From Pseudofrankia saprophytica (GTDB lineage Bacteria; Actinomycetota; Actinomycetes; Frankiales; Frankiaceae), in NCBI RefSeq assembly GCF_000235425.2, contig NZ_KI912266.1:7893130-7957129 (forward strand): a stretch of DNA of 64,000 nt, written 5' to 3'. This document shows, piece by piece, positions 27,256 to 56,286 of the stretch. The number at the start of each line of letters is the position of its first letter. The first letter of the stretch is position 1. A program made the translations under genes and the position numbers. The notes beneath the pieces were generated by a model. It had not been told where the DNA came from, did not search any database, and saw only the letters and a program-made list of their open reading frames with translations.

Positions 27256-27302
27256 ACGGGTGCGCCGCCAGGGACTTGAACCCCGAACCCGCGGATTAAG
27301 AG
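27256..27302. repeat. attL: att site (left), partial tRNA-Lys
   Basis: 47 bases identical to 55,980-56,026. They cover the 3' part of tRNA-Lys(CTT) from the anticodon loop to the 3' end plus 5 flanking bases. Sequence diverges on both sides. This is the left boundary of the AICE. Confidence 0.9.
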
Positions 27303-27853: not shown

Positions 27854-29422
27854 CTTGAGATTTAACCATCTCATGATCGAGTTCGGGTTGGGTTGGCGAT
27901 CTACTGGACAGCTGGCACCCTTCACGTGATCGTGTCTCTTTACTGAGACCAATCCGAGTCGCGTGAAGGTCGTAGAGGTGAGTTTGCTGCGCGAGAACGC
28001 CAATGTTGAATTGTTTTTCGCATTGACCCGTTTCCGTGATGGGTTCTACGACTGCCTGGACGCTCGGGCCGACACGCTCTTCGAGCTGACGGACGCGGTG
28101 ATCTGCACTGAAGCTCCGGTGACCTCCCTGGTCGAGTTGTCACTTGCTTCGGTATTCCGCCGCGGCCACGGAGCCCTGTATGACGCGTTGGCGCAAGGCG
28201 CCATCGACGAGGAACGGCTGCGGGATCTGCTGGCCGACCAGCTCCCACCCGACAGCCCACCGATCTTCGGTGTGGACGTGACGACCTTCCCCAGGCCGAA
28301 CGCCGAGTGCTCACCCGACCGGGGCCTGCACTACGCGCCGTGCCGCTGCGACGGCGACCGCAAGGTCGTACCGGGCTGGGAGTTCCAGTGGGTGACCGCC
28401 CTGGAATGGGGCCGCTCCTCGTGGACGCTGCCGGTCGACGCCCGCCGCCTGCCGCAGGGAGCCTGCCCGGTGACCGCCACCGCCGAGCAGATCCGCGACC
28501 TCACCCGACGGCTGGGCACCCAGCCCCCGACACCACAGCCCGCACCGATGTTCGTGCTGGACCAGGGATACGCAGCCGCCGCACTGACCCACGCCCTGGG
28601 AGACCTTCCGGTCCAGACCCTCGTAAGGATCGCCGGCGACCGTGTCTTCTACGACGGTCGGCCCGGCCCCCGCAAACCCGGCCCCGGCCGCAACGGCATC
28701 CACGGCCAGCGGTTCGCCCTCGCCGCGCCGATGAACCTGCGCCGCCCCGACCAGATGCTGATCGTGCCCGACACGACCAACTACGGCCGGGTCGAGGTCC
28801 GGGCCTGGCAGCGCATGCACCAGAGGGTGGCACGCTCGGGCTACTTCGCCCGCCTGGGAGACGAGCTGTTCACCCGGCTACCCATCATCGAGGGCACCGT
28901 CCTGGAAGTGCGGGTGGAACGTCTGCCCGACGGCCGCAGCCCGCACCGCACCATGTGGCTGTGGCACTCCGGCCCCCATGCACCCGACCTGGACGTGTGC
29001 TGGCGGGCCTACCTGCGCCGCTTCGACATGGAACACACCTTCAAGATGATGAAGTCCCAGCTCGGATGGACCGCGGCACGGCTACGCCATCCTGAGCAGG
29101 CCGTCCGCTGGACCTGGCTGCTCATCGCCGCCTACACCCAACTCCGCCTCGCCCGTGACCTGGCCAACGACCTGCGTCGCCCCTGGGAACGACGGCCCCG
29201 CCCAGGCAAGCCGCTCACCCCCTACCGGGTCCGCCGCGCATTTCGACATCTGCGCGACCGGCTGGGCACCCCGACGCGTCTACCGAAAACCAGCCACCCC
29301 GGCCCAGGACGTCCACCCGGAGGCAGAAACACCCCAGCCCGACGCCACCGTCTCGGCTCAGAAATGCGCAAAACAGACATACCCGCGAAGCCGGGAGGCA
29401 AGAAGAAAGGTTAAATCTCAAG
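27854..29422 (+). mobile_element. 1569-bp insertion sequence with perfect 14-bp ends and 5-bp target duplication
   Basis: Ends CTTGAGATTTAACC and GGTTAAATCTCAAG are exact inverted repeats. CTTGG flanks both sides (27,849-27,853 and 29,423-29,427) as a target-site duplication. One transposase gene fills the element. A recent, complete insertion into IS3 orfA. Confidence 0.92.
27963..29414 (+). CDS. Transposase (DDE superfamily, IS4/IS701-like)
   Basis: 483 residues. Plausible DDE positions are IFGVDVTTFPRP (Asp), APMFVLDQGYAAAALTHAL (Asp) and RRFDMEHTFKMMKSQLGWTAARLRHPEQAVRWTWLLIAAYTQLRLAR (Glu), the last block being typical of IS4-superfamily transposases. The C-terminal 60 residues are basic and Pro-rich. 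GTG 27,963 is listed; GTG 27,978 (VSLLRENANVELF) is an alternative. The gene runs nearly the full length of the element. Family assignment beyond the superfamily is uncertain. Confidence 0.8.
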   Translation: MKVVEVSLLRENANVELFFALTRFRDGFYDCLDARADTLFELTDAVICTEAPVTSLVELSLASVFRRGHGALYDALAQGAIDEERLRDLLADQLPPDSPPIFGVDVTTFPRPNAECSPDRGLHYAPCRCDGDRKVVPGWEFQWVTALEWGRSSWTLPVDARRLPQGACPVTATAEQIRDLTRRLGTQPPTPQPAPMFVLDQGYAAAALTHALGDLPVQTLVRIAGDRVFYDGRPGPRKPGPGRNGIHGQRFALAAPMNLRRPDQMLIVPDTTNYGRVEVRAWQRMHQRVARSGYFARLGDELFTRLPIIEGTVLEVRVERLPDGRSPHRTMWLWHSGPHAPDLDVCWRAYLRRFDMEHTFKMMKSQLGWTAARLRHPEQAVRWTWLLIAAYTQLRLARDLANDLRRPWERRPRPGKPLTPYRVRRAFRHLRDRLGTPTRLPKTSHPGPGRPPGGRNTPARRHRLGSEMRKTDIPAKPGGKKKG

Positions 29423-29473
29423 CTTGGAACAGATCTCCGAGAGCGCGGACACCGAACGGCCGTAGACCAGGTT

Positions 29474-30496
29474 TTGACCGGTGCTTTCGACCAGCTGCGC
29501 GCCGCGGGGGTGCCGGTGAACCGGGCCTGCGTCTACACGGGCCGGTCGAGAGCGACGCACTACCGTCAAGCCGCGCCGGGCGGACGGCGCCATGGGCCGT
29601 GGCTGGCGCGGACTCCGTCGCCGGGGACGTTGACCGACGTCGAACGCGCCCAGGTGCTGGCGGTCCTGGCGAGCCCGGCCTACCAGGACCTGGCGATCCC
29701 GCAGGTCTGGGCGCGGGAACTCGACGCTGGCCGGTACTGGTGCTCGCTGTCGACGATGTACCGCATCGCGCGTGCGGCCGGGCAGACCCGGGAACGTCGC
29801 GCGCTGGCGACCCACCCGCCGCGGGTCCGCCCCGAGCTGACCGCGACCGGCCCCGACCAGGTCTGGTCGTGGGACATCACCGCGTTGAAAGGACCCGAGA
29901 AAGGAGTCTGGTACAGGCTCTACGTCGTGCTCGACATCTACTCCCGGTACGTTACCGGCTGGCTGGTGGCCGCCGGCGAGGATGCCGTGGTCGCGAAGGA
30001 CTTCCTCGCCGCCGCCATTGCCCGGAACGGAGCCCCGCCCCGGGCGATCCATGCGGACCGCGGTGGGGTGATGGTTTCGAAGCCGGTATCCGAACTCCTT
30101 GTCAACCTTCATGTCCACCGGTCTCATTCCCGGCCACGGACCTCGAACGACAACCCCTATTCCGAAGCGCAGTTCAAGACTCTCAAGTACAGCTACGACT
30201 TCCCCGACCGGTTCGGGTCGCTCGCCGACGCACGGACCTTCTGCGAGGGGTTCTTCACCGCCTACAACCACGACCACCGCCACTCCGGGATCGGGTTCCA
30301 CACCCCGGCCTCGGTCCACTTCGGCACCGCCGACCAGGTCCAGACCCACCGCCAGGCCACCCTCGACCGCGCCCACGCAGCGCACCCCGAGCGGTTCGCC
30401 CGCCGGCCACGGCCACCCCGGCTACCCGAGACCGTGTGGATCAACCAGCCAGTTCCCAGCCAACCGAGCAACGACCAACTGTCTCATTTGACTTGA
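29474..30496 (+). CDS. IS3-family orfB transposase
   Basis: 340 residues. An N-terminal HTH_21-like region precedes the rve catalytic core: QVWSWDITALKGPEKGVWYRLYVVLDIYSRYVTGW (first Asp), AIHADRGGVMVSKPV (second Asp), SNDNPYSEAQFKTLKYSYDFP (Glu). The C-terminal tail YNHDHRHSGIGFHTPASVHFG is the usual IS3 ending. Starts at TTG just after the orfA remainder, consistent with frameshift expression. The stop lies a few bases past the probable right inverted repeat. Confidence 0.88.
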   Translation: MTGAFDQLRAAGVPVNRACVYTGRSRATHYRQAAPGGRRHGPWLARTPSPGTLTDVERAQVLAVLASPAYQDLAIPQVWARELDAGRYWCSLSTMYRIARAAGQTRERRALATHPPRVRPELTATGPDQVWSWDITALKGPEKGVWYRLYVVLDIYSRYVTGWLVAAGEDAVVAKDFLAAAIARNGAPPRAIHADRGGVMVSKPVSELLVNLHVHRSHSRPRTSNDNPYSEAQFKTLKYSYDFPDRFGSLADARTFCEGFFTAYNHDHRHSGIGFHTPASVHFGTADQVQTHRQATLDRAHAAHPERFARRPRPPRLPETVWINQPVPSQPSNDQLSHLT

Positions 30497-40095: not shown

Positions 40096-40691
40096 GCACT
40101 TGGTGCACCTTCTCCAGCAGCGCCGGCAGCACGTCCCACACCTGCGCCCAGCCCTCGCCCAGCGGCCAACCCCGATCAAGCAACGGCCCCGGCGTGTCAC
40201 CTCAACATCCGCCCAACTCAGCAGCCCCGCCAGCCCAACCCGTGAGTGGACACTCTATTCGGCGCTGATGATGAACCGGATTGGCAGGGGCATGGACGCC
40301 TGGATACGTCCGCGACCGTTCACGACGGTACGCTTTGGCTTCACCGTAGTTCCGATTTGATGCGGACCGGTCGACGCGCCGGCGAGCACGGCGCGCCAGC
40401 GCCGCGCGCAGCCGCCGCGCGGCGCCACCGGCAATCTACGCTTGATCCTAAATCGGACGATTCGGCAGTTGGCGCGCTGCTGCGCGGACTCGCGTGCCGA
40501 CAGGCCACCGGAGTCGGGCCGTCGGGTCTACTCGGACACGACCACACACGGTCCGTTGTCGGGCGGAGGGCTGGCGAACGACCCCATCGATCGGCGCGGG
40601 AATGGGTCCCAGAGCGCGTTTGTCGAGCGCGTCGCCGTCATCCTGGTGCCATGTATTCCCGTGGCTGGTGGCGGTGACGTACAACGTCGTC

Positions 40692-41858
40692 ATGGTGCGG
40701 GGAGTTGTGAGACGGGCTGGCCGCCGAGTATGCCGCTGGCGAGTGGGCTACGCGCTCGTCCTACTCTTGGCCGCCGGGGGGCTGGTCACCCTGTGGATCA
40801 TCGCTCCTGTTCTTTATTTGCACACCGGCGGCGCCAAGGCTGACGCCCGTACCGCCGCCGCGGCGACTACCCGGCTGGGGATCATGACTCTCGCTGCTGG
40901 ACTGATCGCTTTTGCCGGGGTGACACTTAACCTCCGCGAGACCCGCCAAGCCAACGAACTCACCCGGAAACGGGACCGGGACACCCATCTGCGGGAGCTG
41001 GACGAACAACGCACCAGCCGCTACACCCAGGCGATCACCCAGCTCGGCTCGGTCACCCTGGACATCCGCCTCGGCGGCATCTACGCCCTCGCACGCCTCG
41101 CCAAGGACTCCCCTGACGACCAGCCCACGGTCGTCGAGGTGCTCTCCGCGTTCGTGCGCACCCGCAGCACCGATCCAGGCCTGCGCCCACTCCCGCCCGC
41201 CGACGGGCAGGACCCGCCGCCGCGGCCGGCGCCGGACATCCGTACCGCCGTCCAGATCCTCGCCCGCCTCCCCGGGCTCGATGACGTCCCCCGCGCCGAC
41301 CTGGATGGCGCCGACCTCGCCGGTCCCGCCAGCCTCGCCCGCCTCGTCCTCACGAACGCCGATCTTCGCAACGTCGTGCTAAGCGGGGCGGACCTCACCG
41401 GTGCCAGGCTGGATGGGGCGAACCTCACCGGCGCCACGCTGGGTGCGAACCTCGCCTACGCCCGGCTGGAAGGCGCGAACCTCACCGGCGCCTCGCTATA
41501 TGGGGCGAACCTCACCGGCGCCAGGCTGGATGGGGCGAACCTCACCGGCGCCTCGCTATATGGGGCGAACCTCACCGGTGCCAGGCTGGATGGGGCGAAC
41601 CTCACCGGCGCCGATCTGAACCGGGCGAGCCTCAGGGTTGCCAAGCTGCACGGCGCAAACCTCACCGACGCCGAGTTGGGACGGACGAACCTCACCGACA
41701 CCGAGTTGCACGGCGCGGACCTCAGCGGCGTCCGCCGACTGATGCAGGGGCAGGTGGACGTGGCACTCGGGGACGAGCGGACGCGACTGCCAGAGGAGCC
41801 GGACAAGATCGTGCGGCCGGCGGGGTGGCCGCCGCCGGCCCCGGAGGAAGAGGTCTGA
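40692..41858 (+). CDS. Pentapeptide-repeat membrane protein
   Basis: 388 residues. Two N-terminal membrane helices (YALVLLLAAGGLVTLWIIAPVLYL and TRLGIMTLAAGLIAFAGVTLNL) precede a charged helix (RETRQANELTRKRDRDTHLRELDEQR). A region typical of such proteins follows (ITQLGSVTLDIRLGGIYALARLAKDS), then about 30 uninterrupted pentapeptide repeats of A(N/D)LxG type (about 205-350), predicted to form a right-handed quadrilateral beta-helix. The DNA of the repeats contains a 60-bp unit present twice with one difference. ATG 40,692 chosen; GTG 40,674 possible. Function of this class is mostly unknown. Confidence 0.8.
   Translation: MVRGVVRRAGRRVCRWRVGYALVLLLAAGGLVTLWIIAPVLYLHTGGAKADARTAAAATTRLGIMTLAAGLIAFAGVTLNLRETRQANELTRKRDRDTHLRELDEQRTSRYTQAITQLGSVTLDIRLGGIYALARLAKDSPDDQPTVVEVLSAFVRTRSTDPGLRPLPPADGQDPPPRPAPDIRTAVQILARLPGLDDVPRADLDGADLAGPASLARLVLTNADLRNVVLSGADLTGARLDGANLTGATLGANLAYARLEGANLTGASLYGANLTGARLDGANLTGASLYGANLTGARLDGANLTGADLNRASLRVAKLHGANLTDAELGRTNLTDTELHGADLSGVRRLMQGQVDVALGDERTRLPEEPDKIVRPAGWPPPAPEEEV
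41394..41600 (+). repeat. 60-bp tandem repeat coding for pentapeptides
   Basis: 41,481-41,540 and 41,541-41,600 are identical except for one base. A further 30-bp half-unit matches at 41,394-41,423. Two copies this similar indicate recent expansion by slippage or unequal crossing-over. Confidence 0.9.
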
Positions 41859-46330: not shown

Positions 46331-47971
46331 ATGCCGAGAATCAACGGGGATCGTCCGGTCCCGTCGCTGCCGGCGCGGCACGACAAAATCCGGGTCCCGC
46401 TATGGGTGCTGCTCGTAGGCCTGGCGGCCCGGCTCGTGGGCCGGCTGGTCCTCCTGCTGATGCGGCACCCGATCGCGGTTGCCGTGTTGGTCGTGCTGAC
46501 CGCGTTCTACCGGGCAACGGGTCTGCTCGGCCTCGGCACGTTGGCCGCCGCGGTCGTGCTCGTGTCCATGGCCTGGCGGCTGGCCCATCGGTCGTCGTTC
46601 AACCAGGCGGCCTGGTGGGCCTGGGGCCGGCTGCGGCTCGTGTTCGTCTACCGGCGGCGGTGGCGGGCGGCGACGGTGCATTGCGGCCTGGCGATCCGGA
46701 TCCCTGCGTCGAACGCGGAGCGGGTGACCTTCGACGAGTACTTCCCGCGCATCCGAGCGTTCCGCACCTCTCGCCCCGTCGAGTCCCTGCGGGTGGAACT
46801 GCTTCCCGGCCAGACCCCGCAGACCTGGGCAGAGCAGGCGGAGGCGCTGCGCCACGTCTACCGGACGCGGGCGTGCCGGGTCCGTGCGGAGCGGGTCGGT
46901 TTCGTCTGGGTCGACTTCTACCGCCGCGATTCGCTCGGTCGCACTGTGGCGCCGTACCCGGTCGACGGTCCGGACGCGCCGGGCGCCGGGCTCGAGAACC
47001 TGGTCGTTGGCCGGCGGGAGGACGGCCGGCCGTGGCTGCTGCAGCTGCGCGGCTCGCACGTCCTGGTGGCCGGCGCCACCGGGTCGGGCAAGGGCTCGGT
47101 GCTGTGGTCGCTGATCCGCGCACTTGGCCCGGCGGTGCGGGACGGCCTCGTCGAGCTGTGGGTGTGTGATCCCAAGGGCGGGATGGAGATGGCGGCCGGC
47201 GCACCGCTGTTCGCCCGGTTCGCCTACGACCTGCCCTCCATCGCGGACCTGCTCGACGACGCGGTGACGCGGATGCAGGCGCGGGCTGACGTGCTGCGCG
47301 GGGTGACTCGGCTGCACGAGCCGACCCGGGATGAGCCGCTGATCGTCGTGGTCGTCGACGAGATCGCCGCGCTGACCGCGTATGTCACCGACCGGGACTT
47401 GAAACGGCGGCTGTCGGCCTCCCTGCCGCTCCTGCTGTCGCAGGGCCGCGCGCCTGGCGTCGTCGTGGTCGCGGCCGTCCAAGATCCGCGCAAGGAGACG
47501 TTGCCGTTCCGGGACCTGTTCCCGGTCCGGGTCGCGCTGCGGCTGGTCGAGGCCGATCAGGTCGACCTTGTCCTCGGCGACGGCGCGCACGACAAGGGCG
47601 CGCGCTGCGAGGACATCGGCACCGATCAGCAGGGCACGGGCTATGTCGCCGAGGACGGCGGTGCCGAACCGGTCCGCGTCCGCGCCTCGTTCCCGGATGA
47701 CGCGGAGATCCGCCGCACCGTCGACCGCTACCGGCTGCCCGCCGCGGGGCCGGTTCTTGCGCTGCCCGCGCCGTCGACAGCGCCGGACCTCGTCGATCTC
47801 CTGCGGCTGCGCGGCGCCCGGGCCGTTGACGATCTCAGCCCGCCGGTTCGGCCTCGGCGGCGGACGTGGCCGTGGCGCAGGGCGGCCGGCGCGCGACCCG
47901 GCCCGCATCCCGAAACGGGCGGCTGGGTGCCTGACCTCGCCGAGTACGGCAACCCCTGGGGCGACCAGTGA
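46331..47971 (+). CDS. traSA: FtsK/SpoIIIE-type conjugative DNA translocase (TraSA/TraB-like)
   Basis: 546 residues. Two or three N-terminal membrane helices (VPLWVLLVGLAARLVGRLVLLLM; AVAVLVVLTAFY; LGTLAAAVVLVSMAW) precede the motor domain with Walker A GATGSGKGSVLW near 249-260 and Walker B LIVVVVDEIAAL near 338-349, then LLSQGRAPGVVVVAAVQDPRKETLP. This is the single protein that moves double-stranded DNA between mycelia in AICE transfer. ATG start. The stop overlaps the rep start (GTGA), so both are made together. Confidence 0.9.
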   Translation: MPRINGDRPVPSLPARHDKIRVPLWVLLVGLAARLVGRLVLLLMRHPIAVAVLVVLTAFYRATGLLGLGTLAAAVVLVSMAWRLAHRSSFNQAAWWAWGRLRLVFVYRRRWRAATVHCGLAIRIPASNAERVTFDEYFPRIRAFRTSRPVESLRVELLPGQTPQTWAEQAEALRHVYRTRACRVRAERVGFVWVDFYRRDSLGRTVAPYPVDGPDAPGAGLENLVVGRREDGRPWLLQLRGSHVLVAGATGSGKGSVLWSLIRALGPAVRDGLVELWVCDPKGGMEMAAGAPLFARFAYDLPSIADLLDDAVTRMQARADVLRGVTRLHEPTRDEPLIVVVVDEIAALTAYVTDRDLKRRLSASLPLLLSQGRAPGVVVVAAVQDPRKETLPFRDLFPVRVALRLVEADQVDLVLGDGAHDKGARCEDIGTDQQGTGYVAEDGGAEPVRVRASFPDDAEIRRTVDRYRLPAAGPVLALPAPSTAPDLVDLLRLRGARAVDDLSPPVRPRRRTWPWRRAAGARPGPHPETGGWVPDLAEYGNPWGDQ

Positions 47972-49671
47972 CCACCCCCGGCCCGGACGGCGCGACGCCC
48001 GGCGAGCAGGAACCGCGGCCCGGTTCCCGGCTCGCCCGGCTACGGATGCCGCTCGCGCGCCATGTCGTCGAGGCGGTCGCGGTCGAGGAAGGCGTGTGCG
48101 TGCGGCCGATCGCGCTGCGCCGGGTCGACCTCGACACCGGCGAGACGACGATCATCCCCGCACCCTGCGGCGCCACCCTCGCCAGCAAATGCCCGCCCTG
48201 CGCCGAGCGGGCGCGGCGACTACGGATGGCGCAGTGCAAGACCGGCTGGCACCTCGACGACGAACCCCTCCCGCCACCAGACCCGCCCGACGACGACGCC
48301 AAACAACTCGCCCGGCTGCGCGCGGACCTCGAAGCGATCCGGGCCGAGGCGGAGCAGGCAGGCGACCTGGCCGGCGTCGCCGATGCCGACCAGGTGATCG
48401 GTCACGTCGACGAAGCCCTCGCCGACCTCGGCGTCCGCGGCAAGGCCGCACCGGACGATCGGACGCGGCCGCGGCGGAGCAGGTCGACGAAACGGCGTCA
48501 GGACGTCGCCGACCTGCCTCGGCTCCCGGTCGACAAGCGCACTGTCGGGCGGACGTATGTGGCGGCGGATGGCACGGCCTGGCGGCCGTCGATGTTCCTC
48601 ACGCTCACCTGCGACACCTATGGCAAGGTCCTCGGCGACGGAACCCCGGTAGACCCGGACGGCTACGACTACCGGCGGGCGGCCCGCGACGCGATCCACT
48701 TCCCGAAACTCGTCGATCGGTTCTGGCAGAACCTGCGCCGCGCGGTCGGCTGGGACGTCCAGTACTTCGCCGTCCTGGAGCCACAGCGGCGGCTCGCGCC
48801 GCACCTGCACGCCGCGTTCCGCGGAACGGTTCCCCGGGTCGTGCTGCGTCAGGTCGCGGCGGCGACCTATCACCAGGTGTGGTGGCCGCCCACCGACGCG
48901 CCGGTCTACGCGCCCGATGGCCCAGGGCTGCCGGTGTGGGACGAGCAGGCGGCCGGCTACGTCGACCCGGCGACCAAGGCAGCGTTGACGTCGTGGGATG
49001 AGGCGCTCGACGCCATCGGCCCGGACGATCAACCCGCGCACGTCGTCAGGTTCGGACCACAGATCCAGGCCGACGGCGTCACGTCGAACAGCGCCACGGC
49101 CGGACGGCTGATCGGCTACCTGACCAAGTACCTCACCAAGTCGCTGGACGCCTGCCACGCCGTCGACACCGACCGGCAGCGCGCGCACGTCGACCGGCTC
49201 GCCGCGGCGCTGCGCTACGAACCGTGCTCGCCCACCTGCGCCAACTGGCTCCTACACGGCATCGCGCCACGCAACGCCCGGCCCGGCCTCGTCCCCGGCC
49301 GATGCAAGGGCAAGGCACACCGGCGCGAAACGCTCGGCTTCGGCGGCCGCCGCGTCCTGGTCTCCCGCAAATGGTCCGGCAAGACGCTGTCCGACCACAA
49401 AGCCGACCGGGTCGACTTCGTCCGGGCTCAGCTCGAAGCCCTCGGCCACCGACCCGACGCAGGCAGTCCAGCCGAGCAGACGACCGGCGACCCGGCCGGC
49501 GCGCCGCGCGTCTCCTGGGAACTGATCCGGCCCGGCGACCCGAACGCGCCACGACGCGAACACCTGATCATCCACGCGATCGCCAACCGGCAACGCTGGC
49601 ACGCCCAGCTGGCGAACCCCACGACGACCGGGCCACCCGCCGGCGGCAGCGCGCTGCCAGACGTGGCCTGA
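47968..49671 (+). CDS. repSA: Replication initiator, HUH-type (RepSA-like)
   Basis: 567 residues. An N-terminal zinc-like motif is CGATLASKCPPCAERARRLRMAQC. The catalytic region contains RPSMFLTLTCDTYGKV (motif I), LAPHLHAAFRGT (the HxH metal site, motif II) and AGRLIGYLTKYLTKSLDACH (motif III with the Tyr residues). A later Cys set (CSPTCANWLL) and LGFGGRRVLVSRKWSGKTL match actinobacterial RepSA proteins. It nicks its own origin to start rolling-circle replication of the excised element. GTG start overlapping traSA by 4 bases. Confidence 0.9.
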   Translation: MTTPGPDGATPGEQEPRPGSRLARLRMPLARHVVEAVAVEEGVCVRPIALRRVDLDTGETTIIPAPCGATLASKCPPCAERARRLRMAQCKTGWHLDDEPLPPPDPPDDDAKQLARLRADLEAIRAEAEQAGDLAGVADADQVIGHVDEALADLGVRGKAAPDDRTRPRRSRSTKRRQDVADLPRLPVDKRTVGRTYVAADGTAWRPSMFLTLTCDTYGKVLGDGTPVDPDGYDYRRAARDAIHFPKLVDRFWQNLRRAVGWDVQYFAVLEPQRRLAPHLHAAFRGTVPRVVLRQVAAATYHQVWWPPTDAPVYAPDGPGLPVWDEQAAGYVDPATKAALTSWDEALDAIGPDDQPAHVVRFGPQIQADGVTSNSATAGRLIGYLTKYLTKSLDACHAVDTDRQRAHVDRLAAALRYEPCSPTCANWLLHGIAPRNARPGLVPGRCKGKAHRRETLGFGGRRVLVSRKWSGKTLSDHKADRVDFVRAQLEALGHRPDAGSPAEQTTGDPAGAPRVSWELIRPGDPNAPRREHLIIHAIANRQRWHAQLANPTTTGPPAGGSALPDVA

Positions 49672-50428: not shown

Positions 50429-50566
50429 CCCGGTTCTCTGCTGGCGCTTCACACCGTCGGGGGGCCGGACGGGTCCAGGGTCGGCCGAAGGCCGATCGCG
50501 CAGCGACGCGCAGCGCCCTGGATGCGGCCGGACCCCCGACGGACCCTCCCCGCGCCAGAGAACCGA
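50429..50566 (+). repeat. Long imperfect inverted repeat before int
   Basis: 50,429-50,480 pairs with about 50,515-50,566: CGGTTCTCTG with its complement CAGAGAACCG, and CCGTCGGGGG...CCGG with CCGG.CCCCCGACGG. Inside is a perfect hairpin TCGGCCGAAGGCCGA (50,481-50,495). A fold of this length could be an attenuator, a single-strand origin or a transfer site. Confidence 0.7.
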
Positions 50567-50632
50567 ACGCCACCGGAACCGGAAGACCGCATTCCTTGCC
50601 CTCGTCCCTCTCATAGAAGGAGCACAACCCAG

Positions 50633-51757
50633 ATGGCGCGTTCGATCTCTCCGCAACCGTCGGACGAAGGTTCCGGCAGCTCCCGACCCGCGGGCGACCC
50701 GGTCGACGGCACGCCGTCCGGCGAGGCCAAGCCCGCGCGGAAGAAGGGGGCCAGCGACAAGAAGAAGTCCCGGCGGGCGCACGGCGACGGCGGCCTGTTC
50801 CAGCGGTCCAGCGATGGCCTGTGGGTCGGCCGCGTCGACCTCGGTTGGAAGGACGGCAAGCGCGTCCGCAAGACCGTCTATGCCAAGACGCAGGCTGAGT
50901 GCCGCACGAAGCTGGAGAAGCTGAAGCGGGCCGCCGAACTCGGCGTCAACGTCACGGCGGAGCGGCGCACGGTTGAGAAGTGGCTCGCCGAGTGGCTGAC
51001 CATCAAGGCGGCCGACGGCACCCGGCCGTCGACTTTGCGCTCGTACCGCTGGCTGATCGCGTCGCACATCGTCCCGGCGATCGGCCGTATCCAGCTGGAC
51101 AAGCTCACCCCGCTCGACGTGCGCCGGCTCGTCGCGGCGGCGAAGGCGGCCGGGCTCGCCCCGACGAGCGTCCGCCATGTTCACGGGCTGATCCGCAACG
51201 CGCTGTCGGAAGCGGAACGGCTGGACCTGGTGCCGCGCAACGTCGCCAAGGCGGTCAGGGCGCCGTCCGCGCCGCACGCGCAGGTTCGAGCGCTGCGCCC
51301 CGAGGAAGCGCGCCGGCTTGTCGAGGTGCTGCGCAGCGATCGGCTCGAAGCTGTCTTCGCGTGCGGGCTCATGCTCGGCCTGCGGCGCGCGGAGATCCTC
51401 GGCCTGCGCTGGGACGACGTCGACCTCGACGGCGCTGTGCTGCACGTCCGGCACGGCCTCCAGCGGGTCGACGGCAAGCTCGCCTTCGTCCCGACGAAGA
51501 CCGAACGGTCGCGGCGCCGGCTGCCCATCCCGCCGCGGCTCGTCGAGATCCTGCGCCGTCACCGTGCGGCACAGCGAGCCGAACGAACCGGCCGCGGCGA
51601 TGCCTGGAAGGAAACCGGCCTCGTTTTCACGACGACTATCGGCACGGCGCTGGAGCCGAGAAACGTCAACCGCCATTTCGACCGGATCCGCAAGGAAGCG
51701 GGCCTTCCGTGGCTGCGGCTGCATGACCTCCGCCACGCATTCGCGACCATGCTTTAA
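50633..51757 (+). pseudogene. int: AICE tyrosine integrase, 5' part (split)
   Basis: 374 residues up to HDLRHAFATML, then an immediate stop created by an insertion. Present are the arm-type N-terminal domain (GLFQRSSDGLWVGRVDLGWKDGKRVRKTVYAKTQAE), the core-binding SAM-like domain (RRTVEKWLAEWLTIKAAD) and box I LMLGLRRAEILGLRWDDVDL with its Arg, plus HDLRH of box II. The last His and the nucleophile Tyr lie 3.9 kb away at 55,627-55,843. ATG 50,633 follows GAAGGAG. Without rejoining, the protein cannot recombine att sites. Confidence 0.88.
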
Positions 51758-51763
51758 CTAGGC

Positions 51764-51786
51764 AATGTTGCATCTGATGCAACATT
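51764..51786. repeat. Perfect palindrome at the left end of the inserted element
   Basis: AATGTTGCAT, CTG, ATGCAACATT: 10-base arms around three bases. Followed by two direct copies of AGTTTCTGTG (51,791 and 51,817), which bracket a CCCGCGAGCGGG palindrome. Likely recombinase binding sites. Confidence 0.75.
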
Positions 51787-51987
51787 CGGCAGTTTCTGTG
51801 ATCGCCCGCGAGCGGGAGTTTCTGTGCCAGTGGGGTTTCTTCGCGCGGGCTGACGACATGGGCGACATGCCGTCTGACCTGCTGTGATCACTCCTTCGAT
51901 GCATTCGATGACAGATTGCGGCGTCTGGTGACGTTGCGTTCGGTGCCGCGATGTGGCGGCTGGCGCAACGCGTAGGGAGACGCTGAT

Positions 51988-53085
51988 ATGCGGTCGAGGA
52001 CCGCGGGCACGGCGGCGCTGGCGCTCGTGGACGGCGCGACGCCGCTGCGGGCGGAGCCGGTGCTGTTCGACGAGATGCTGGCAGGTTTCCGCCGCCAGCA
52101 GGTCAGCCGCCGGCTGAGCTCGTCGCTGATCGACGGCCGGGAACGGGTGGTGCGCCGTTTCCAGGCGGCCAGCGGCAGCTGGCCGTGGACGTGGACGCCG
52201 GCGCAGCTGGAGGGCTGGGTCGCCGCCGGTGGCTGGGCGCACTCGACGGTGCGCAACTACCAGGGCGCGGTCGGAATGTTCTGTGACTACGCGTGCGACC
52301 CGCGGTATGGCTGGGTCGCCGAGTGCGAGCAGCGGGTCGGCCTGGCGCCGAGCCGGATCTGCCACGACGAGAACATGGCGACGCACGTCGCCGACCACGA
52401 GGGCCGCCCGGAGCGGCGGCCGCTGACGCGCGCCGAGCTGCAGGCGTTCTTCGACGCGGCCGACGACTGGGTCGAGCAGTTGGCGGGCAGCCGGCGCAAG
52501 GGCTGGCTGCAGGCGTTCCGCGACGCGGCGATGTTCAAGGTGATCTACGGCTGGGGGCTGCGCCGGGCGGAGGCGGTCCATCTTGACCTCGCCGACTTCT
52601 CGACGAACCCGGCCGCGCGGCAGCTGGGCTCGCTGGGTGTCTGCCATGTCCGGTTCGGCAAGGCGATGCGGGGCGGTCCGCCGCGGCGCCGCGCGGTCGC
52701 GACGGTGTTCCCGTGGGCGGCCGGGGTGCTCGAGGAGTACCTGACGGTGGTCCGCCCCCAGTTCCCGGGGTCGGCCGGCCCAGCGGTCTGGCTGACCGAG
52801 CGCGGGAACCGGATCTCGACCCGGTCGGTGGACGACCGGTTCGCCCGGTGGCGGGCCGCGGCGGGGCTTCCCGCCGATCTGTCCGTGCACTGTCTGAGGC
52901 ATTCGTACGTTTCGCACCTGATCGAGGATGGGGTCGATCCGTTGTTCGTCCAGCAGCAGGTCGGCCATTCGTGGGCCTCGACGACCGCGACCTACACCAC
53001 CGTCGGTGCGGACGCGAAGAACCGGATGCTTACCGCGGCGCTCGCGGCGGTCCTGCACGCCGTGGCCGGGACGGAGGACCGGTGA
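51988..53085 (+). CDS. Tyrosine recombinase (element gene 1)
   Basis: 365 residues. The N-terminal SAM-like domain (LIDGRERVVRRFQAASGSWPWTW) precedes a catalytic domain with all expected residues: box I YGWGLRRAEAVHLDLAD (Arg), box II HCLRHSYVSHLIEDG (His, Arg), VGHSWASTTATYTTVG (His and the nucleophile Tyr). Similar in length to TnpA of Tn554. Presumably catalyses movement of the 3.9-kb element. Its stop overlaps the next gene (GTGA). Confidence 0.88.
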   Translation: MRSRTAGTAALALVDGATPLRAEPVLFDEMLAGFRRQQVSRRLSSSLIDGRERVVRRFQAASGSWPWTWTPAQLEGWVAAGGWAHSTVRNYQGAVGMFCDYACDPRYGWVAECEQRVGLAPSRICHDENMATHVADHEGRPERRPLTRAELQAFFDAADDWVEQLAGSRRKGWLQAFRDAAMFKVIYGWGLRRAEAVHLDLADFSTNPAARQLGSLGVCHVRFGKAMRGGPPRRRAVATVFPWAAGVLEEYLTVVRPQFPGSAGPAVWLTERGNRISTRSVDDRFARWRAAAGLPADLSVHCLRHSYVSHLIEDGVDPLFVQQQVGHSWASTTATYTTVGADAKNRMLTAALAAVLHAVAGTEDR

Positions 53086-53492
53086 GCGCGCAGGTCGGCT
53101 ACTACTGGCATCTGCGGAAGCTGATGGCCGAGCGTGGGCTGTTCGCGACGACGGCGCTGGTCCCGCTGCTCGCCGAGCGGGGTGTCCGGCTTTCGCGCGA
53201 GCAGGTCTACCGGCTGGTGACCGGCGTCCCGGAGCGGCTGTCGCTGGTGACGCTCGCCGCGCTCTGCGACATCCTCGGCTGCGCGCCCACAGACCTCGTC
53301 GAGCCCTACCGGGGCCGGCCCCGGCGCGCCGCCGACCCCGGTGCGTCCGCGGCACTGGCGGACACGGCACCGTCGGACACGACGGCACCGGCCACGACGG
53401 CGCCGCGGGCGGTGTCCTCGCCGGTCGTGATGCCGTTGCGGCCCCGGCGCGCCGAGATCACCGCCGTCCCCGGCCCGGGGACCGGGTCATGA
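53082..53492 (+). CDS. Small HTH protein (element gene 2)
   Basis: 136 residues. The N-terminal 70 form an XRE-like helix-turn-helix (YYWHLRKLMAERGLFATTALVPLLAERGVRLSREQVYRLVTG and LVTLAALCDILGCAPTDLVEPY), followed by an Ala/Thr/Pro-rich tail. Coupled to both neighbours (GTGA before, ATGA after). May regulate the element or act as a recombination accessory like TnpC of Tn554, though not homologous by eye. Confidence 0.8.
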   Translation: MSAQVGYYWHLRKLMAERGLFATTALVPLLAERGVRLSREQVYRLVTGVPERLSLVTLAALCDILGCAPTDLVEPYRGRPRRAADPGASAALADTAPSDTTAPATTAPRAVSSPVVMPLRPRRAEITAVPGPGTGS

Positions 53493-55567
53493 CCGGCCCC
53501 TGGGCGTCTCGGCTCGAGAAGGTGGCGGCCCGCCGGGTGGCGGTGACCGCGGCGGTGGCGGCCGCCGACCCGGCCCTACCGGCCGACGTGATCGCCGCGG
53601 CGGTGGGCGCGGTCAGCGGCGCGAGCCTGCGGCACCTGGCCGACGCGCTGGCCACGGACCCGGCCGCGCTGAGCGTCGGCGCGCCACCGGCGGTCGGACG
53701 GCTCGTCGAGACGCTGATCGCGGTCGGTGGCGCGCTGCCGGTGCCGACATGCGCGCGCTGCGGCGCGACCGGCCGTCCGCTGACCCGCCAGGGCGACGGG
53801 CAGGGGCTGTGCTCGCGCTGCCACAACCGGGCCCGGGCAACCGCCTGCGTGCGCTGCGGGATCGTCAAACCGGTAGCCGGCCGCGACCCGCAGGGCCAGC
53901 CGGTCTGCGCGCGCTGCGCGGACCGGGTCCAACGCCGCTGCGGTGTGTGCGGCACGGTGCGCCGGATCGCGCGGCGCGCGCACGACGGCCAGCCCGACAT
54001 CTGCGTGAACTGCTTCACGCTCCCGGAGGCGGTCTGCTCGGTCTGCGGGCGGCGGCGGCCCTGCGCGTTCGCCAGCAGCGACGCCCCGCTCTGTCAGAGG
54101 TGCACGCCACGGCGCGCGCTGCCGTGCGCCCGCTGCGGCGCCACCCGGCCACCGGCCGTCCGCTGGCCCGAGGGGCCGGTCTGCGACCCGTGCTACACGG
54201 CGGCGCTGCGCCACCGCGGCACCTGCGCGTCCTGCGGCCAGACCCGCCGCCTCGTCCATCCCCCCGGCGTCGACGCCACGACCTGCGCCGACTGCACCGG
54301 TCTGCCGGTCACCCACCGCTGCGTCGACTGCGGCCTCGAGGACAAGCTCTTCGACGCCGGCCGCTGCGCGACCTGCTCCCTGCGACGCCGCACGACCGTG
54401 CTGCTCGCCGCCGACGACGGGCAGGTCCCGGCCCACCTCGCCGCCGTGGCCGAGGCGATCTGCGCGACCCCGAACCCCTACACCGCGTTGAACTGGCTGC
54501 GCACCGGCGCGGCCAGCGCGCTGCTCGCCGACCTGGCCGCCGGCCGGCTGCCAACCAGCCACGAGGCGCTCGACGCCCATCCCCGCCGCGGCGCAGCCGA
54601 CTACCTGCGCACCCTGCTGGTCGCCCACCAGCTACTCCCGGCACGCGACGAGGCACTCGCCCGCGCCGAACAGCGCCTGGCCCGCCGGCTCGCAGACGTC
54701 GAACCACCCGAACACCGACGTGTCGCAACCGCCTACGCCACCTGGCGGGTCCTGCGCCGCCTGCGCCGCCGCGCGGAACACTCCCGCGGCCCCCGGACGG
54801 TGACCGCCCGCGCCACGCAACTCGTCCACGTCACGATCGCGTTCCTCGCCTGGCTGCACGACCACGGCACCACCCTGGCCGAGCTCGACCAGCACACCGT
54901 CGACCTCTGGCTGACCAGCGGCGCCCCGTCCGCCCACGACGTCGGCGACTTCCTCGCCTGGACCGCCGGGCGCGGCCACACCCGAGCGCTGACGGTCCCC
55001 GCCCGCCCCCGACCAACCGGCCCGGCCACCAGCGAGGACGAGCGGACCGCGCTGCTCGCCCGGCTCCTGCACGACGACACCGTCGAACTGACCGACCGAG
55101 TCGCCGGTGCACTGCTGCTCCTCTACGGCCAACAACTCTCCCGCATCGCCGCGCTCACGACCAGCCAGGTCCACCAGTCGGGCGACACCGTGCACCTGCA
55201 GATCGGCACCGAACGCATCCACCTGCCCAAGCCGCTCGCCAGCCTGGTCCCGCGGCTACGCGACGAAGGCCGTCCCCACGTCGGCGTCGGCTCACCCGCC
55301 ACGACCGGCTGGCTGTTCCCAGGCCTGCTCCCCGGACAACCGATCACCCCCGCCCGGCTCGGGGAGCGTCTGCGCAAGCTCGGGGTCTCCGCGGTCGCCG
55401 GTCGCCGCGCCGCGATAACCCAGCTCGCCGCCGAACTCCCCACCGCCGTCCTGGCCGACATGCTCTCGATGCACCCGACCACCGCCGCCCGCTGGACCGC
55501 TCAGGCTGGGGGCACCTGGCACCACTACGCCGCTGAACTCGTCCGTGACCGTGACTACCAGCCCTGA
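53489..55567 (+). CDS. Zinc-knuckle recombinase-like protein (element gene 3)
   Basis: 692 residues. From about 85 to 300 there are many Cys pairs (CARCGATGRPLT, CSRCHNRARATACVRCG, CGVCGTVRR, CVNCF, CSVCGRRRPC, CARCGATRPP, CASCGQTRRL, CADCTG, CVDCGLEDK), probably a string of zinc ribbons. The C-terminal 260 residues resemble a tyrosine recombinase: a core-binding region (TIAFLAWLHDHGTTLAELDQHTVDLWL) and a catalytic-type fold (LLLLYGQQLSRIAALTTSQV). The usual HxxR box and Tyr are not obvious (AGRRAAITQLAAELPTAVLADMLSMHPTTAARWT), so catalysis may be degenerate. Likely a DNA-binding partner of gene 1. Confidence 0.75.
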   Translation: MTGPWASRLEKVAARRVAVTAAVAAADPALPADVIAAAVGAVSGASLRHLADALATDPAALSVGAPPAVGRLVETLIAVGGALPVPTCARCGATGRPLTRQGDGQGLCSRCHNRARATACVRCGIVKPVAGRDPQGQPVCARCADRVQRRCGVCGTVRRIARRAHDGQPDICVNCFTLPEAVCSVCGRRRPCAFASSDAPLCQRCTPRRALPCARCGATRPPAVRWPEGPVCDPCYTAALRHRGTCASCGQTRRLVHPPGVDATTCADCTGLPVTHRCVDCGLEDKLFDAGRCATCSLRRRTTVLLAADDGQVPAHLAAVAEAICATPNPYTALNWLRTGAASALLADLAAGRLPTSHEALDAHPRRGAADYLRTLLVAHQLLPARDEALARAEQRLARRLADVEPPEHRRVATAYATWRVLRRLRRRAEHSRGPRTVTARATQLVHVTIAFLAWLHDHGTTLAELDQHTVDLWLTSGAPSAHDVGDFLAWTAGRGHTRALTVPARPRPTGPATSEDERTALLARLLHDDTVELTDRVAGALLLLYGQQLSRIAALTTSQVHQSGDTVHLQIGTERIHLPKPLASLVPRLRDEGRPHVGVGSPATTGWLFPGLLPGQPITPARLGERLRKLGVSAVAGRRAAITQLAAELPTAVLADMLSMHPTTAARWTAQAGGTWHHYAAELVRDRDYQP

Positions 55568-55626
55568 CGAATAGCTACCAGTCGATCTTCTCCCATGGCG
55601 CTACTCAACACCCCTGGAACATTGCT

Positions 55627-55843
55627 GCCTACCGGTTTCACCGAAGGCGTCCCGGCCCGCACCGTGATGGAGCTGCTCGGCCACTCGACGATCCAGCTCA
55701 CCATGAACACCTACACCCACGTCATGCCCGAGACCCAGCGGGACGCGGTCGCCAAGCTTGACCGGTGGTTCGACGGCCACCAGGACCAGGGCGACGAGCA
55801 CGACCAAGACGACACGGATCAGACCGACGACGAGACGGCGTGA
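55627..55843 (+). pseudogene. int: AICE tyrosine integrase, 3' part (split)
   Basis: Continues the integrase broken at 51,757: GVPARTVMELLGHSTIQLTMNTYTHVMPETQRDAVAKLDRWFDG carries the late His (GHS) and the nucleophile Tyr (TYTHV), followed by an acidic tail. A short open frame could begin at ATG 55,595 but would lack all other catalytic residues. It lies 137 bases from the att/tRNA, the normal position for an AICE int 3' end. Confidence 0.85.
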
Positions 55844-55979: not shown

Positions 55980-56026
55980 ACGGGTGCGCCGCCAGGGACT
56001 TGAACCCCGAACCCGCGGATTAAGAG
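55980..56026. repeat. attR: att site (right), inside tRNA-Lys
   Basis: 47 bases identical to 27,256-27,302. They run from 5 bases outside the tRNA 3' end through the anticodon loop. Here the tRNA gene is complete. Confidence 0.92.
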
Positions 56027-56057
56027 TCCGCTGCTCTGCCAATTGAGCTAGCGGCGC
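55985..56057 (-). tRNA. tRNA-Lys (CTT)
   Basis: 73 bases on the minus strand. Acceptor stem GCGCCGC pairs with GCGGCGC plus discriminator A. The D-loop has AGCTCAATTGGCAGAGC, the anticodon loop CTCTTAA gives anticodon CTT, and the T-arm has GGTTCAAGTCC. CCA is not encoded. It serves as the integration target of the AICE, which recreates its 3' half. Confidence 0.95.
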
Positions 56058-56286
56058 ATGTTCCTCGGTCTTGCTTCTTGGTGCGATGTTGCCGTCAGGC
56101 ACGTTTCCGTGTCGACGTGGACGACTGTACCAGCTCCCGGGGCGGGTGGGTGGGCCGGGACACCCGTCCCCTGCGCCAGTCCCGCCTCCTCGCGGCAGCG
56201 CCCACGCTCGATCAGGACGACTGGCGTGGTGGCGTCCAGCGTGGCGGCGGCAGGACGCAGGAGCGATCGAGGCGGACAGCCGAGGC

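Follow-up and report, generated by a model that had tools for sequence, protein, structure and literature searches.

A small tyrosine-recombination transposon that appears to use the active-site codons of tyrosine-recombinase genes as its attachment site

The integrase gene of an AICE in the window (the whole stretch of 64,000 nucleotides analysed here) is split by a three-gene insert. This is very probably a small site-specific transposon that moves by tyrosine recombination and has as its attachment site the DNA encoding the H-x-L-R-H-x-x-A/T motif of tyrosine-recombinase genes. Judged from its junction sequences, this lineage appears to attach at the part of the recombinase family's DNA that is most strongly conserved.

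The host element is a genuine AICE, with an integrase gene beside a tRNA attachment site, RepSA, an FtsK-type Tra and direct att repeats. Its features, in window coordinates, are:

27256-56026, AICE of 28.8 kb with RepSA, FtsK-type Tra, 47-bp att repeats and tRNA-Lys
27256..27302, + strand, attL, a perfect 47-bp copy of the 3' part of tRNA-Lys
46331..47971, + strand, FtsK/SpoIIIE-type transfer ATPase (Pfam FtsK_SpoIIIE, 8.8e-9)
47968..49671, + strand, replication initiator RepSA (Pfam RepSA, 5e-104)
50522..51755, + strand, N-terminal part of the integrase (Pfam Phage_integrase, 7.7e-14, ending at profile position 140 of 172)
55638..55843, + strand, C-terminal part of the integrase, TEGVPARTVMELLGHS...TYTHVMPETQ
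55980..56026, + strand, attR, inside tRNA-Lys(CTT) at 55982-56058

The AICE also encodes two DDE-type transposases close to attL (27963-30496) and, at 40494-41858, a protein with pentapeptide repeats.

The open reading frame of the N-terminal half of the integrase (50522-51757, 411 aa) meets a stop codon directly after HDLRHAFATML, the integrase part of it ending 34 nt past the start of the codon for the catalytic His; the frame is picked up again at about 55637, 3.9 kb beyond, as (F)TEGVPARTVMELLGHSTIQLTMNTYTHVMPETQ. The cut thus falls where a preliminary description of this DNA had placed it, after HDLRHAFATML and between the catalytic boxes, and it removes box III and the catalytic Tyr from the N-terminal part. 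Homologous AICE integrases with 78-80% identity, from at least five related genomes, have no insert and so represent the empty site; across the insertion point they read HDLRHAFASMLF(S/A)EGVPARTVMELLGH. The position of the three genes, taken by itself, would be consistent with their being native to the AICE and with an integrase that is naturally split, but the uninterrupted homologues, together with the occurrence of the same cassette in unrelated genes, leave this explanation with practically no probability. The homologous AICEs do not carry the three genes as a constant feature, and the earlier proposal that a mobile element had interrupted the integrase is sustained both by these homologues and by copies of the element elsewhere.

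The ends of the element were set by comparison with a second copy in the same genome, which has different flanking genes, and with the uninterrupted integrase homologues. The inserted features are:

51756..55637, + strand, whole element, 3882 bp (3.88 kb), ends good to about 3 bp, AACTAGGCAATGTT ... AACATTGCTGCCTACCGGTT
51759..51769, + strand, left terminal inverted repeat TAGGCA-ATGTT, matching the right end in inverted orientation
51764..51786, left-end palindrome AATGTTGCAT-CTG-ATGCAACATT, perfect, with 10-bp arms
51988..53085, + strand, gene 1, tyrosine recombinase of 365 aa (Pfam Phage_integrase, 7e-20; XerC/XerD matches)
53082..53492, + strand, gene 2, small HTH (Cro/C1-type) protein of 136 aa (Pfam HTH_26, 3.8e-14)
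53489..55567, + strand, gene 3, 692 aa, with an array of Zn-ribbon CxxC pairs and a C-terminal tyrosine-recombinase fold
55618..55637, - strand, right end AACATTGC-TGCCTA-CCGGTT, imperfectly repeating the left end in inverted orientation

The preliminary description had recognised a discrete insert, which stands, and had given its span as 51755-55627, which is corrected here to 51756-55637; the end bases are placed only to within about 3, since the right junction of some relatives (L043, L044 and L065) is 3 nt shorter than that of the window copy, the second copy and L091. No target duplication was found at the junctions by comparison with the second copy and the empty sites. The flanking motifs reported earlier were located (GCAATGTT at 51762-51769 and AACATTGC at 55618-55625), as was the 10-base-arm palindrome, and the right end is identical in the second copy and nearly identical in a relic described below. 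The core of the palindrome, GTTGCATC, is kept in L043, L044, L045, L064 and L138, and takes the form ATTGCATC in L090 and L091; from its sequence, the palindrome is a probable binding site for the recombinase or the HTH protein.

All three frames of the element are open, and the open reading frame coordinates agree with the earlier account of genes joined by overlaps, GTGA between genes 1 and 2 and ATGA between genes 2 and 3. The same account had called them a recombinase trio, a label that has to be given up: only gene 1 is a clear tyrosine recombinase, with its catalytic residues intact (HCLRHSY...GHS...Y), gene 2 encodes the HTH_26 protein, and gene 3 has a recombinase fold with degraded catalytic residues. 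Gene 3 matches the XerD profile with an E-value of 0.003; its AlphaFold model (pLDDT 83) retrieves XerA, Tn1549 Int and lambda Int in Foldseek at E-values of about 1e-5, and alignment places Trp at the tyrosine position and shows a decayed HxxR box. As modelled, its C-terminal region is a tyrosine-recombinase fold that is catalytically degraded. Scans of a defence-system library with all three proteins, and of a phage-family library with the products of genes 2 and 3, gave no match, and a search of viral contigs and phage records returned distant recombinases only.

The second copy of the element (C2) lies on the opposite strand, 5.9 Mb from the window copy. It is interrupted by a 100-N assembly gap, and the two segments on either side of the gap match the window copy at 100% identity (857 bp) and 98.7% identity (307 bp). 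C2 sits in a different recombinase gene but at the same codon (...LHQLRHTHATEL / NAGVPVETIRKRLGHADI..., the slash marking the junction), and this host gene is frameshifted upstream of the insertion. The identical right junction in the two copies is compatible with a shared donor, a reading that it fits without proving. At a further locus in the genome (L012, G000:C1:5678377-5678420 region) the right end of the element is fused to the C-terminus of a decayed AICE integrase, with no left part of the element and no tRNA nearby; this is the relic of a third insertion.

Junctions were then read in relatives with at least about 60% gene-1 identity and in copies found by their left end, of which 11 were readable and one (L066) was not. 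Eight of the 11 readable insertions are in tyrosine-recombinase genes (the window copy, C2, L043, L044, L045, L065, L090 and L091), and each splits its host gene between the HxxR box and the LGH/Tyr box. In all eight the left junction lies 22 nt past the start of the His codon in the invariant Arg-His pair (CGN-CAC), with CAC at -22, and the element has the same orientation; wherever the catalytic His codon of HxxRH is readable, the junction is 34 nt past its first base. The host genes match Pfam Phage_integrase with E-values of 2e-14 (C2), 6e-7 (L043), 5e-13 (L044), 1.5e-5 (L090) and 6e-10 (L091); in L045 and L065, where the fragment is short, the match is weak (0.02-0.04). From the junction onward, a pair of copies in genome G130 are 92% alike; the sequences ahead of it are unrelated. 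As the 9.98-Mb host genome has only 18 matches to Phage_integrase, the probability of repeated insertion into recombinase genes by chance is negligible, and chance is excluded because unrelated recombinase genes have other copies at the same codon. The search for further copies of the cassette, proposed earlier as a way of defining ends and target, therefore showed a target that is systematic rather than accidental.

The three remaining readable insertions (L064, L046 and L138) are not in recombinase genes, and this proportion is what might be expected of a low-specificity transposon that had entered an integrase by chance, the pattern then reflecting the small number of cases and the fact that dispensable genes tolerate insertions. 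Such an explanation is very unlikely given the identical motif nucleotide and single orientation in all eight recombinase insertions, the fixed targets found in sister clades as well, and the exceptions themselves, which keep CAC or CAT at -22. In L064 (JAUPKM010000646) the target is a 31-bp tandem repeat in which CTGCGGCACACC occurs, with the offset of -22 unchanged, which suggests recognition of a DNA motif rather than of a gene; L046, a copy with a frameshift, lies downstream of a P450 gene, and L138 consists of a left end only.

For the site-specific transposon proposed here, strand exchange at the ends would be carried out by gene 1, with the product of gene 3 acting as a non-catalytic partner subunit that helps to recognise the target or the ends, and the HTH protein of gene 2 binding the palindrome at the left end in an accessory or regulatory role. 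Movement would probably be by copy-out via a circular copy, a mode favoured by the presence of near-identical copies in a single genome; SEs and Tn554, as analogues, suggest that the element may move in this way (PMC10214605). It can fairly be inferred that the AICE, having lost its integrase, would be trapped and immobile unless a recombinase acts in trans; full trapping is made less certain by the excision observed in a Frankia AICE whose int was truncated (PMC3218068).

The preliminary description had further supposed that the AICE is released if the element excises. In its strongest form this would be a regulated switch comparable to prophages in comK or sigK, with precise excision under some condition restoring the integrase and freeing the AICE. 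The insertion is clean, the empty site can be rebuilt exactly or nearly so and all three element genes are open, as a switch would have them; but the element's nearest mechanistic analogues, the SEs, form circles and regenerate no empty site (PMC10214605), near-identical copies share a genome, decay has begun in the C2 host gene and in the L043 element, and the targets are unrelated recombinases with no conserved host partner. A switch is accordingly improbable, and release of the AICE on excision is doubtful because SEs copy out without an empty site and the two near-identical copies suggest copying.

By layout, the transposon belongs beside the Tn554, SE, GInt and RIT transposons. It resembles the Tn554 family (Staphylococcus/Enterococcus; TnpA, TnpB and TnpC; target att554 in radC) in being site-specific, in using tyrosine recombination, in lacking a target duplication, in having imperfect terminal inverted repeats and in combining one ordinary and one long recombinase-fold protein with a small third protein. 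Unlike Tn554, it has its small HTH gene in the middle, a recombinase gene as target, no cargo, and a long protein that is rich in Zn ribbons and degraded in its catalytic residues; the likeness drawn here is one of layout, and no Tn554-named model was matched in an NCBIfam scan of the three proteins. A Tn554-related class from Actinobacteria, with a short and a long recombinase and often a third gene, is similar in these respects and was reported with no target described (Van Houdt et al., 2012; PMC3414803). Two records of that class, pRHL3 and pREL1, yielded no gene-3 homologue in a search run without a positive control, and for gene 1 gave only weak, generic recombinase matches.

SEs and GInts, the likely model for copy-out movement, share with the element an operon of recombinase and small-protein genes at one end, specificity for a target gene and imperfect terminal repeats (inverted in SEs). 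They differ in being cargo-bearing islands with other targets and four core genes (intA-tfp-intB-srap or ginABCD), and SEs are from Gammaproteobacteria; the element has three genes and not the four-gene operon with a second catalytic recombinase, and was not assigned to them. RIT (recombinase in trio) elements, like it, consist of just a three-gene cassette and terminal inverted repeats; assignment to them was rejected since RITs have three catalytically complete recombinases, whereas here gene 2 is HTH_26 and gene 3 is degraded. The gamma-mobile-trio was likewise rejected, with GmtY scoring 25.1 bits against an NCBIfam cut-off of 340 and GmtZ 12.1 against 600.

Known targets of site-specific transposons include safe genes such as radC. 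The res-site hunter transposons Tn402/Tn5053 do aim at the recombination systems of other mobile elements, by DDE transposition into res sites; here, by contrast, tyrosine recombination would be directed into a recombinase gene's own coding motif. No description of a transposon targeting recombinase or integrase genes was found in the literature searched, mostly papers available without subscription, and this target specificity appears undescribed. Since its relatives land repeatedly at one and the same spot, the element looks specialised in disabling other mobile elements. Recombinase active-site codons as a landing site would give entry to almost any integrative element while disabling its mobility gene, and the transposon would in this way act as a natural brake on horizontal transfer. 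It would also show clearly how the invariant catalytic residues of a protein family can set the choice of target.

In a tree of gene-1 proteins the recombinase-targeting members, together with L064 and L066, form one clade with support of 100/100, and this clade is rare (11 readable sites). Its sister clades have fixed targets of their own, namely Tn3 transposase, HATPase, NlpC/P60 and peptidase genes and CRISPR arrays; the HATPase, NlpC/P60 and peptidase targets were named by reading of the sequence rather than by profile search. L047 (G043:C133) lies within a Tn3-family transposase gene (GRGVTYLNF/SDQFAGFHAIVVPGTLRDSL), the joined flanks of which match Pfam DDE_Tnp_Tn3 at 1.2e-14. Two identical 3.7-kb sister elements in one genome (L049 and L050, G002) occupy the 3' ends of two different HATPase (RsbW-like) genes, and a partial third copy (L059) is also present; L048 and L051 are at NlpC/P60 genes, and L092, L094, L099 and L100 occupy the 3' end of peptidase-like genes, where (D)HxDHI/LH is conserved. 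We give about even credence to the broader proposal that an actinobacterial transposon family has diversified by re-aiming at the best-conserved coding sequence of other genes, one lineage having adopted the catalytic motif of tyrosine recombinases and thereby become a hyperparasite that permanently immobilises integrative elements while its sisters aim at Tn3 transposase genes or CRISPR arrays. The related clades, whose fixed targets differ, form a ready-made series in which to study changes of specificity in such transposons.

Two of the sister elements, L056 (G004:C77, about 3.2-6.05 kb of the locus) and L095 (G023:C318, about 2.85-5.75 kb), are 82% identical and are each located within or next to a CRISPR array, the repeats of the two arrays being different. 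The element sequence that they share begins about 25-35 nt past the repeat end, and in L095 the CRISPR repeats resume on the far side, beyond a Clp-N-like gene; these are possible CRISPR-array-targeting transposons. The element family as a whole is common on actinobacterial plasmids.
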